Positions 511 to 5,569 of a stretch of DNA of 23,352 bases are shown here, piece after piece. The DNA comes from a bacterium. Lineage in GTDB: Bacteria > JAJRZV01. The number at the start of each line of letters is the position of its first letter. Position 1 is the stretch's first letter. The position numbers and the translations under genes were made by a program. The notes beneath the pieces are model-generated. The model was not told the origin of the DNA, did not search any database, and saw only the letters and a program-made list of their open reading frames with translations. Location: contig JAJRZV010000081.1 of NCBI GenBank assembly GCA_024275095.1, positions 1-23,352 of the forward strand, written 5' to 3'.

Positions 511-1275
511 ATGGCGGAGAAAGAGCTGGAGATCGTGGACCTTCACGTAAGTGTTGAGGGCCAGGAGATATTGAAAGGTTTGAACCTTGAGGTTGAAAAG
601 GGTGCTGTGGAAGTCATCATGGGGCCCAATGGTTCTGGAAAAAGCACGCTCGCGCATACCATTATGGGGCATCCCAAGTATCAAATTACATCGGGAAAAA
701 TTCTCTTTCGCGGTGAAGACATTACCCATCTGAAACCCTACGAGCGGGCTCGCAAGGGACTTTTTCTCGCTTTTCAGTATCCCCACGAAGTGGAAGGTGT
801 CCCCCTGGGCCGATTTCTCTGGAGGGCCGCATCCGTAATACGCGAAGCAGATACCGAGAGGGATATCCCTGATAATCCTGGCGCGTTTAACGAGGTCCTT
901 CGCAAAGGACTTGAGGCCCTGCAACTGGATAAATCTTTTCGTAGTCGAGACCTTAATCTCGGCTTTTCCGGAGGTGAAAAAAAACGTGCAGAAATCGTGC
1001 AGATGCTTGCACTCAAACCCCGTCTGGCGGTACTGGATGAAATTGACTCTGGTCTTGATATCGATTCCATCAAGCTTGTCGCTTCCGCAATTGAGCGGTA
1101 CCGCAACGGAGCTTCTTTCCTTATCATCACCCATTATCAGAGGATTCTGGATTACGTGAAACCCGACCGTATTCATGTAATGATAGATGGACAGGTTGTG
1201 CTTTCCGGAGGTCCTGAACTTGCCAGAGAACTTGAAGAGAAGGGTTACGAGTGGCTCCGGGAAAAGAGGGGGTGA
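511..1275 (+). CDS. sufC: SufC, ATPase of the SufBCD Fe-S cluster scaffold
   Basis: A 254-residue cytosolic ABC ATPase, the usual length for SufC. It powers conformational change of the SufB-SufD dimer during iron-sulfur cluster assembly (family knowledge). Visible motifs are Walker [10 protein letters not shown] (38-46), the Q-loop glutamine in FQYP (about 89), the signature [10 protein letters not shown] (150-159), Walker B with DEID (176-179) and the switch histidine in ITHY (208). The [10 protein letters not shown] block after the Q-loop is typical of SufC and not of transport ATPases. The ATG is preceded by AAGGAGG. It is the first gene of the suf unit, immediately behind a likely promoter and Fur-like box. 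Its stop is followed 5 bp later by the preferred sufB start. Confidence 0.97.
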
Positions 1276-1280
1276 CCACC

Positions 1281-2690
1281 TTGGCCGATGAGAAGAAAGG
1301 TGTTCTTGACGATATAGATTATTCCAAATACGACTTCAAGCAACCCGACATCCATACTTTTACCACGGGTAAAGGATTGTCACGTGAAGTTGTGGAACAA
1401 ATATCTCATATTAAAGAGGAGCCTGACTGGATGAGGGAATTTCGGCTCCGTGCATATGAAATTTTCCTGGAGAAGCCCATGCCCACCTGGGGAGCGGATC
1501 TTTCCTCAATTAATTTTGATGAATACACTTATTACATTCGCCCATCGGATAAAAAGGGCACGTCCTGGGAAGAAGTTCCTGATCACATTAAGGATACCTT
1601 TGAGAAGCTTGGAATACCCGAGGCGGAACGGAAGTTTCTCGCGGGTGTAGGAGCCCAGTATGAAAGCGAAATGGTGTATCACCATATTCAGGAAGATCTC
1701 GAAAAGAAGGGGGTCATTTTCCTGGATGCAGATACGGGCCTCAAGCAGCACGAAGAACTTTTCAAAAAATATTTTGGCTCGGTGGTGCCTCCAGGGGATA
1801 ACAAGTTTGCCGCTCTTAACTCGGCCGTGTGGAGTGGGGGAACTTTCATCTATGTGCCACCCGGTGTGAAGGTGGATATACCCCTTCAGGCGTACTTTCG
1901 CATCAACGCCCAGGCAATGGGCCAGTTTGAGAGAACACTCATCATTGTGGATGAAGGAGCGTTTGTTCACTACATTGAAGGATGTACTGCTCCTATTTAT
2001 TCCAAGGATTCACTGCACGCTGCCGTGGTAGAAGTGATCGCCTTACCACATGCCCATGTGCGCTATACCACCATTCAGAACTGGTCCAAGAATATTTACA
2101 ACCTGGTTACCAAGCGTGCTGTTGCGTACGAAGGTGCGCTTGTTGAGTGGGTGGACGGAAATATTGGTTCAGGAACCACCATGAAATATCCCGCTATTAT
2201 TTTATGAGGTGAAGGTGCACGTGCAGAAATACTTTCCATTGCATATGCAGGTAAAAACCAACACCAGGATACCGGTGCCAAGGTTATACATCTTGCTCCG
2301 CATACCTCATCTACAATTACCTCAAAGTCTGTATCTCGTTATGGAGGCCGTGCGTCTTACAGGGGACTCGTGAAGGTTGTCAGTGGTGCGCACGGTGTCA
2401 GGGTTTCTGTGAGATGTGATGCACTTATTCTTGACGAAGTTTCGCGATCAGATACGTATCCATATATGGAAATTGCTGAAGAAGATGTGGAAATCGCTCA
2501 TGAAGCAACTGTAGGCCGCATTACCGAAGACCAGATTTTTTACCTCACTTCTCGAGGACTTACTGAAGAAGAGGCTCTCGCCATGATCGTGAGGGGCTTT
2601 ATTGAGCCTTTTACCAAGGAACTTCCCATGGAATACGCTATTGAACTCAACCGTCTCATTCAGCTCGAAATGGAAGGCTGCATAGGCTGA
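1281..2690 (+). pseudogene. sufB: SufB, Fe-S scaffold subunit, interrupted by one in-frame TGA
   Basis: Read through the TGA at 2205-2207, the frame encodes about 469 residues, the normal SufB length. It has SufB blocks before the stop ([50 protein letters not shown]) and after it ([46 protein letters not shown]). The TGA is codon 309 and sits where homologues I recall carry variable residues (Met, Lys, Arg), so a CGA-to-TGA change is a simple explanation. Reading from the stop onward, no ATG, GTG or TTG occurs in frame until 2370, so re-initiation would lose part of the beta-helix. A truncated product would also lack the cysteine at 379, which probably corresponds to the assembly cysteine of E. 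coli SufB. The TTG at 1281 is preferred, with GAGGGGGTGA just upstream; GTG 1251 would overlap sufC by 25 bp. The stop overlaps the sufD ATG. Confidence 0.9.
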
Positions 2691-3916
2691 TGGGAGCGAA
2701 AAGGGAAGCATCATTCGGGTACTGGCTTGATCAACTGGCTGAAGAGGCCAGGGAAACCCTTAGCGGGACTCCTTTACCCACAGACAAGTACAACAGGCAG
2801 CATCTGGTGGACCTCAATGTATTCAAGGCTCCAGAACGCAGAAAAGATGCGACGACTCGAATTCCAGAGGTGGCAGGGGATTTTGAAGTTATAGATATTG
2901 ACGGTGCTATTCTCAAGGTTTCTGCTGAGGGACGTGCTTCTCGTGAAGGTGTTTATGTGGGCGATGCTTCTGGAGATGTGCCTCATGAAGTTATTGAAGT
3001 TTTCGGATCGTTGCGAGACCACCTGCTTGGTGAGAATCGTTTTTCACGTCTTGTTGCCTCACTGTGGTCGGGTATTACTGTGGTTTATATTCCACCCTCG
3101 TGTCAGCTCAGTGATTCCATAGACATACTTCACGTCAGAAGTGCAGAAAATGCAACGCTTGGTCATCTTACTTTTATATTCGCTGGTCCGAATTCGCAGG
3201 CACGAATTTTTGAAGAATATATTTTTGAAAAGCGGAAGGATGGTGCTGGTCTCGGAGGAGTTTTTATTTACCTCTCGGAAAATGCCAGGATGGAGTACAA
3301 CGCGCTCATTCCGTTCAATGAACTTGAGGGCTGCGTGCATCACCGACGGGCCTTTGCATCCGCAGGTGCTTCTCTCACCTGGAATCACGGGTGGTTTGGT
3401 TGCAGGTATCTTCGGGCTGAGGTGAAGACATTTTTACAGGGTCCGGGGGCTCAGGTGGATGAGAGGCATTTCTTTTTTGGCGAGGGCAAAAATTTCTATG
3501 ACATGGATGCGTTGCTCATGCATGCAGCACCTGCTACTAGTGGCACCAGTACTGTACGCGGTGCACTTGCAGGTACGTCTCGCAGTGTTTTCCGCGGCCT
3601 TGTCCACATTGTCCCGGAGGCAAAAAATTCGGATTCTTTTCTGGAGGACCATGTGCTGTTGCTTTCCAAGGGCGTCCGTTCCGATTCTGTGCCTGCACTT
3701 GAAATTCTCAACAATGCTGTACGTGCTTCACATTCGGCATCATCCGGTCATATTGACCGCGAAAAAATGTTTTATCTTTGTTCACGAGGACTTGATGAAA
3801 CGGAAGCAAGGAATATTCTTGTCCGCGGTTTTTTCGAACGTGCCCTGGGGCGTGCGTGGGATAATTTCAAGCGCAGGCTTATAAGCCAGACAGATGAAGT
3901 GCTGGAGAGGATTTAG
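2690..3916 (+). CDS. sufD: SufD, Fe-S scaffold subunit
   Basis: A 408-residue SufD-family protein, the partner of SufB in the SufBC2D complex; it supports iron entry and cluster assembly (family knowledge). The N-terminal third is variable. The right-handed beta-helix core runs from about residue 120 to 340, and the C-terminal helical region includes CSRGLDETEARNILVRGF, the same block seen near the end of SufB. SDSFLEDHVLLLSKG and RASHSASSGHID are typical SufB/SufD family signatures, the latter containing histidines near the proposed assembly site. The ATG shares a base with the sufB TGA (TGATG), so its translation probably depends on ribosomes finishing sufB. The in-frame TGA inside sufB could therefore lower SufD output as well. 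Confidence 0.93.
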   Translation: MGAKREASFGYWLDQLAEEARETLSGTPLPTDKYNRQHLVDLNVFKAPERRKDATTRIPEVAGDFEVIDIDGAILKVSAEGRASREGVYVGDASGDVPHEVIEVFGSLRDHLLGENRFSRLVASLWSGITVVYIPPSCQLSDSIDILHVRSAENATLGHLTFIFAGPNSQARIFEEYIFEKRKDGAGLGGVFIYLSENARMEYNALIPFNELEGCVHHRRAFASAGASLTWNHGWFGCRYLRAEVKTFLQGPGAQVDERHFFFGEGKNFYDMDALLMHAAPATSGTSTVRGALAGTSRSVFRGLVHIVPEAKNSDSFLEDHVLLLSKGVRSDSVPALEILNNAVRASHSASSGHIDREKMFYLCSRGLDETEARNILVRGFFERALGRAWDNFKRRLISQTDEVLERI

Positions 3917-3934
3917 TCTTCAGGAGAACCGGTG

Positions 3935-4333
3935 ATGAGCGAGTACGATGATGTACAGATGGAATATATTCTTGAGCTTTACAGGAATCCCCGGAACAAA
4001 GGAACCATTGAAAACCCTGATATTACCCATCAAGAAGGCAATCCTTCCTGTGGCGATGAAATTCGCATTGATGTAAAGCTGGACGGCGATCGTATTGGAG
4101 AGATTAAGTTCTCCGGCAAGGGTTGTGCCATATCTCAGGCAGCAGCATCCATACTCACGGAGATGGTAAAGGGCAAAACCCTGGAAGAAGTTAAAAAACT
4201 GACCAAGGAAGACATGTTGAAAGCTATTGGTGTACCTCTAAGCCCCATCAGGCTCAAGTGCGGTCTTCTGGCTCTGAAGGTGTTGAAAGCGGGGCTTTAC
4301 GGCATCAAAGGATGGCCTGGTGAAGAGGAGTAA
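3935..4333 (+). CDS. sufU: SufU/IscU-type Fe-S scaffold or sulfur-relay protein
   Basis: A 132-residue NifU-N/IscU-fold protein. The three conserved cysteines are present at 39 (NPSCGDEI, with the adjacent Asp), 64 (GKGCAISQAAAS) and 109 (RLKCGLLALKVL). The gap between the second and third cysteine (45 residues) is close to that of IscU. It lacks the roughly 20-residue insertion known from Bacillus SufU, while the operon setting with sufCBDS is that of a SufU. It may accept persulfide from SufS or hold a zinc or a nascent cluster; the sequence alone cannot decide. The ATG at 3935 is chosen over the GTG one codon upstream because CAGGAG at 3921-3926 is well spaced from it. There is an 18-bp gap from sufD. 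Confidence 0.9.
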   Translation: MSEYDDVQMEYILELYRNPRNKGTIENPDITHQEGNPSCGDEIRIDVKLDGDRIGEIKFSGKGCAISQAAASILTEMVKGKTLEEVKKLTKEDMLKAIGVPLSPIRLKCGLLALKVLKAGLYGIKGWPGEEE

Positions 4334-4348
4334 AAAGGGGAACAGGTC

Positions 4349-5569
4349 ATGAAGGTGGAGGAAATAAGAAAGGACTTTCCTATTTTTCAGCAACAGGTTA
4401 ACGGTCATCCGCTGGTGTATCTGGACAACGCAGCCACGACCCAGCGTCCTCGCCAGGTGGTGGAGGCGGTGATGCGGTTCTATCAGGATGCCAATGCCAA
4501 CGTTCACCGTTCCGTACATACCATGAGCTATCGGGCTACAGAACTCTATGAAGGAGCGCGTAAAAAAATTGCGTCTTTCATCAATGCTTCGTCCTGGCGG
4601 GAAATTGTTTGGGTGAGGGGAGCAACGGAGGGCCTTAATCTACTCGCATATTCTCTCGGGCTTTACCATCTTCGGGAAGGTGATGAAATCGTGTTAACCG
4701 TGATGGAGCACCACTCAAACATGGTTCCCTGGCAGCGCATCGCACAGTTAAAAAACTTACGTATTGTCTATGCCGGTGTTACACCTGAGGGCCGGCTGGA
4801 CATAGAAGACCTCAAAGCCAAGATCTCTTCCCGTACCCGGCTCATTTCCGTAATCCATGCATCAAATGTTTTGGGAGTGGTCAACCCTGTCGGTGAAATT
4901 GCGCAACTTGCCCGGGATGCAGGTGCTATTTTTATTGTGGATGCAGCCCAGTCTGCTCCGCATATGCCTATAGATGTGGAAGCGATGGGTTGTGATTTTC
5001 TTGTGGCAAGTGGTCATAAGATGCTTGGACCTACGGGGATAGGATTTTTATACGGGCGCAGGGAGCGTCTTGAAGCGATGGAGCCGTTTCAAAGCGGTGG
5101 GGACATGATCGAACACGTAACCTTGGAAGGAGCCACCTGGAATGAATTGCCATGGAAATTCGAAGCAGGAACGCCCAATATCGCCGGCGCCATTGGTCTG
5201 GGCGCGGCGGTTGATTACATTAACAATGTCGGACTGACTGATATGCTTGAGCATGAAAAGGAGCTGCGTCGCTATGCTGTAGAGCGTATCAGAGAACTCG
5301 GCGGAGTGGATATCTATACTCCTGATGGAGATGATGTGCTGGGGATCGTGTCCTTCAACATCCACGGAATTCATCCCCACGATGTGGCAGGATATCTGGA
5401 TCAGTGCGGTATCGAAGTCCGTTCGGGTCACCATTGCACGCAGCCGCTTATGGAATGCCTGCGTATAGAAAACGCCGTGCGCGCCAGTTTTTACCTGTAC
5501 AACACAAAAGAAGAAGTGGATCGGCTGGTTGAGGCCCTGGCGCGTGTGAAAAAACTTTTCCGCGTGTGA
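4349..5569 (+). CDS. sufS: SufS, cysteine desulfurase
   Basis: A 406-residue class V aminotransferase-fold enzyme that takes sulfur from L-cysteine as an enzyme-bound persulfide, giving alanine. The N-terminus YLDNAATTQRP (24-34), the HHSNMVPWQ block (121-129), the pyridoxal-phosphate lysine in SGHKMLGPTG (Lys224) and the catalytic loop RSGHHCTQPLM (Cys363) are all present. The short Cys loop and the ending ASFYLYNTKEEVD place it in group II (SufS) and not IscS or NifS. Length is normal. It starts 15 bp after sufU, which fits a SufS-SufU pair. The stop overlaps the GTG of the next gene by 4 bp. Confidence 0.96.
   Translation: MKVEEIRKDFPIFQQQVNGHPLVYLDNAATTQRPRQVVEAVMRFYQDANANVHRSVHTMSYRATELYEGARKKIASFINASSWREIVWVRGATEGLNLLAYSLGLYHLREGDEIVLTVMEHHSNMVPWQRIAQLKNLRIVYAGVTPEGRLDIEDLKAKISSRTRLISVIHASNVLGVVNPVGEIAQLARDAGAIFIVDAAQSAPHMPIDVEAMGCDFLVASGHKMLGPTGIGFLYGRRERLEAMEPFQSGGDMIEHVTLEGATWNELPWKFEAGTPNIAGAIGLGAAVDYINNVGLTDMLEHEKELRRYAVERIRELGGVDIYTPDGDDVLGIVSFNIHGIHPHDVAGYLDQCGIEVRSGHHCTQPLMECLRIENAVRASFYLYNTKEEVDRLVEALARVKKLFRV

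Follow-up and report, generated by a model that had tools for sequence, protein, structure and literature searches.

The single in-frame TGA that interrupts sufB in this draft genome is most probably a wrong base in the metagenome consensus, the organism's own gene being intact; we put the probability of this reading at about 0.85. We infer the base error from the rest of the assembly, in which lone stops, with TAA, TAG and TGA all represented, turn up again and again in genes that cells cannot do without. Scattered base-substitution errors in the consensus would put such stops into undamaged housekeeping genes, and the cell would then make intact SufC, SufB, SufD, SufU and SufS, an ordinary SUF system for iron-sulphur assembly. 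At face value, the TGA would suggest instead that the organism's one complete scaffold for iron-sulphur assembly is gone.

The suf operon and the state of sufB

The window, i.e. the whole stretch of DNA that was analysed (23,352 nt), is an entire contig (C46) of a draft genome of 2.45 Mb in 136 contigs, with a completeness of 97.0% and a contamination of 0.9%. This genome is the sole member of its phylum among the genomes compared. In the window, sufC, sufD, sufU and sufS adjoin sufB and run in one direction:

511..1275, + strand: sufC, intact (TIGR01978, 327 bits)
1281..2690, + strand: sufB, single copy, interrupted once; own stop at 2688-2690, likely start codon TTG at 1281
2205..2207, + strand: in-frame TGA in sufB, codon 309 of 469 counted from the TTG at 1281
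2690..3916, + strand: sufD, intact, assigned from position and sequence (TIGR01981, 191 bits, slightly below the cut-off of 222)
3932..4333, + strand: sufU, intact (TIGR01994, 105 bits)
4349..5569, + strand: sufS cysteine desulfurase, intact (TIGR01979, 588 bits)

In the assembled sequence, the SufB frame is not continuous, as it contains one TGA. When this codon was read as X, the SufB profile TIGR01980 matched straight through it with 727.6 bits (cut-off 346.4), the match covering positions 3-448 of 448 over 446 residues with exactly one internal stop; the Pfam SUFBD_core domain likewise spans the TGA (residues 207-441 of the read-through product). Only one of 109 near-invariant SufB columns is changed, by a conservative substitution (S189T), which is comparable to what is seen in intact homologues, and looking for the marks of a decayed pseudogene revealed no damage in sufB beyond the TGA. 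We therefore rejected the idea that sufB is an old pseudogene. No further breaks were seen in the window's other genes, a point that counts against the base-error reading.

The earlier note on this DNA had placed the TGA at codon 309 of sufB, on which the frame and the profile match agree. Its statement that the rest of the operon is intact holds for sufC, sufD, sufU and sufS, and the junction it described between the sufB stop and the sufD start was found as TGATG at 2688-2692, where the two overlap. It had also taken sufB to be the only copy in view and had asked for a search of the genome for a second sufB or an isc/nif system. The profile search of the genome detected no second sufB or SmsB-like copy, the one further SufB match being the neighbouring SufD, and sufU proved to encode the only NifU_N/IscU-type protein (PF01592 search), leaving no second scaffold of that type. 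Outside the suf operon, the genome encodes a further cysteine desulfurase, of IscS/NifS type (C108:6000-7148; 408 bits, below the IscS cut-off), and no second scaffold protein was found in the genome to go with it.

Codon 309 is variable, as had been claimed: about 108 homologues, drawn from two collections, have M, A, L, T, K, R, V, Q, Y, H or E at the aligned position, and Cys, Trp and stop codons are absent from it. The Arg that the earlier note gave for E. coli SufB was confirmed by alignment with 5awf. Among the residues seen, those one step from TGA are Arg (CGA, AGA) and Leu (TTA). The route that the note had considered simplest, CGA to TGA, is thus possible but not to be preferred, since AGA and TTA are equally close and the stop types found across the genome (see below) misfit a C-to-T spectrum. 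The nearest SufB found, 75% identical and from a WOR-3 MAG (S141_55), has Leu (CTC) at this codon. Separately, long SufB matches in Patescibacteria resembled inteins; the one that was opened (L098) turned out to be an ordinary SufB of 496 residues, the surplus length of the match probably being a SufD match.

Single in-frame stops across the assembly

We sampled 943 kb of the source genome for stop codons with same-frame coding sequence on both sides, as recognized by codon-pair statistics, and then checked the candidates by profile. Thirteen genes, a lower bound, were found in which a single in-frame stop interrupts a conserved protein (9 TAA, 3 TAG and 1 TGA). Besides sufB, these are:

C21:8711, TAA: prfB
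C21:1991, TAA: dnaE
C16:30974, TAA: nadB
C59:24879, TAA: dapL
C121:55233, TAA: efp
C59:5717, TAA: malic enzyme
C7:17629, TAA: NiFe-hydrogenase small subunit
C19:5555, TAA: methyltransferase
C15:7890, TAA: MR_MLE enzyme, stop between two domains of one enzyme
C110:19155, TAG: proB
C89:9675, TAG: M16 peptidase
C79:3868, TAG: M50 peptidase

In 12 of the 13, the stop falls within the matched domain, the MR_MLE enzyme being the exception. The match of prfB, which encodes RF2, contains two TAA codons; the sequence of the gene shows the usual frameshift region at its start and a mid-gene TAA. prfB and dnaE lie on the same contig. Candidates whose stop falls at a gene or domain boundary were left out of the count (purA/DUF4388, a PilZ pair, glutamine synthetase/GATase and SCP2/CoA-transferase, and likewise ExbB/ExbD, MshEN/ABC and DAGK/Tam41). 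The source assembly shows an excess of single stops, and at the genome's rate 0.32 of them is expected per 23-kb window. As none of the SufB homologues has a stop at codon 309, the TGA in sufB is no mere accident of the frame, but for this assembly it is nothing out of the ordinary.

The same screen was applied to two other genomes (614 kb). It returned 32 candidates in the 943 kb of the source genome (33.9/Mb), versus 6 in 400 kb and 1 in 214 kb in the controls, figures that are only roughly comparable per Mb as the screen is affected by G+C content (0.48 versus 0.38 and 0.35). Most of the seven control candidates look like gene junctions, as judged by eye from the flanking peptides. Both dnaE and efp are single-copy in the source genome, each with its stop. 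Over 59 genomes, only one of 57 efp matches contains a stop, namely that of the source genome, and very few dnaE matches do. One of these, with a single TAG, is the top-scoring dnaE of a different genome that consists of one contig (G057:C1:2465201-2468251).

As regards the kind of base change, no clear frameshift was observed in the sampled stretches, eight frameshift candidates lacking a nearby ATG being probably places where gene ends overlap and the next gene uses another start codon. The proportion of TAA among the stops (9 of 13) is far above the 15% predicted by pure C>T/G>A change (P ~1.5e-5) and exceeds the 41% predicted by uniform substitution (P ~0.04); G>T/C>A change predicts 55%, and an illustrative mixed natural spectrum gives P ~0.01. 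DNA damage by deamination is disfavoured as the source by this mix of stops. At the stop positions of proB and of the hydrogenase small subunit, homologues have Glu, which suggests a G>T change in both genes. The counts of stop types are small and alone do not separate error from mutation.

Recoding, gene splitting, fresh mutation or error

The earlier note had left three options open, namely a sequencing or assembly error, a recent loss and a stop that is read through. Our results favour the error, and programmed read-through was left unsupported. That the TGA might be read through, whether by selenocysteine insertion, by a suppressor tRNA or through a general tolerance of in-frame stops, would agree with the conserved frame on either side of it and with the presence of stops in indispensable genes, but we consider it very improbable. 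Indeed, no SelB scored above its cut-off in the genome (97% complete), no tRNA-Sec exceeded the gathering score there, the best matches being tRNA-Ser and tRNA-Leu, and the hairpin directly downstream of the TGA was not significant as a SECIS element (z -1.24; 24 of 200 shuffles as good). Together with the absence of Cys from the homologues, this led us to reject selenocysteine. Nor was a tRNA with a stop-reading anticodon found in the sampled 920 kb. Reassignment of TGA was rejected as well: all three stop codons serve as terminators in the genome, TGA is the commonest (it ends 287 of 520 long frames), the RF2 gene is present, albeit with its mid-gene TAA in the assembly, and in-frame stops are far too sparse. 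Moreover, as TAA, TAG and TGA all occur among the 13 stops, no single recoding explains them. A bacterium that, alone in its phylum, tolerates sparse stops of every kind by some general, unrecognised read-through would be a scarcely credible exception. We find it just as implausible that SufB is made in two parts from a split gene whose second half restarts: there is a GTG-started frame at 2370-2690, but such a restart would skip the stretch 2208-2369, about 54 conserved codons, and a split at this position is seen in none of the approximately 108 homologues.

Real and very recent nonsense mutations in a gene-losing lineage, or minor alleles caught in the consensus, sufB being in that case a fresh pseudogene, seem unlikely to us, although less so. 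Fresh mutations would leave genes otherwise intact, as sufB and the other stop-bearing genes are. By contrast, the affected genes include some that cells cannot spare (the single-copy dnaE, prfB), plus efp. Gene decay normally brings indels as well as stops, and the sampled stretches contain no clear frameshift. The predominance of TAA also fits poorly with a spectrum dominated by C-to-T changes, be it pure or mixed. The reading that most simply explains dnaE, prfB and efp along with sufB is a substitution error in the consensus. A draft genome can make an intact gene appear broken, and a lone stop in it should be judged by how often such stops occur elsewhere in that assembly.

Comparison with known systems

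In sequence, domain make-up and gene neighbourhood, the present sufB agrees with the SufB of SUF systems encoded by sufCBDUS-type operons, the difference being the one in-frame TGA in the assembly. The order sufC-sufB-sufD is likewise that of the SUF system in the WOR-3 MAG S141_55. Bacterial selenoproteins, in which UGA specifies selenocysteine, resemble the present sufB in that a UGA lies within a frame conserved before and after it; sufB differs from them in that SelB, tRNA-Sec, Cys-containing homologues and a significant hairpin are all lacking. The closer likeness that we favour is with the premature stops that sequence errors introduce into metagenome assemblies, which likewise yield truncated predicted proteins. 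Truncated predicted proteins have been described as a mark of assembly error in the case of indels in long-read assemblies (PMC6785717); unlike those indels, the changes in the source assembly look like substitutions.
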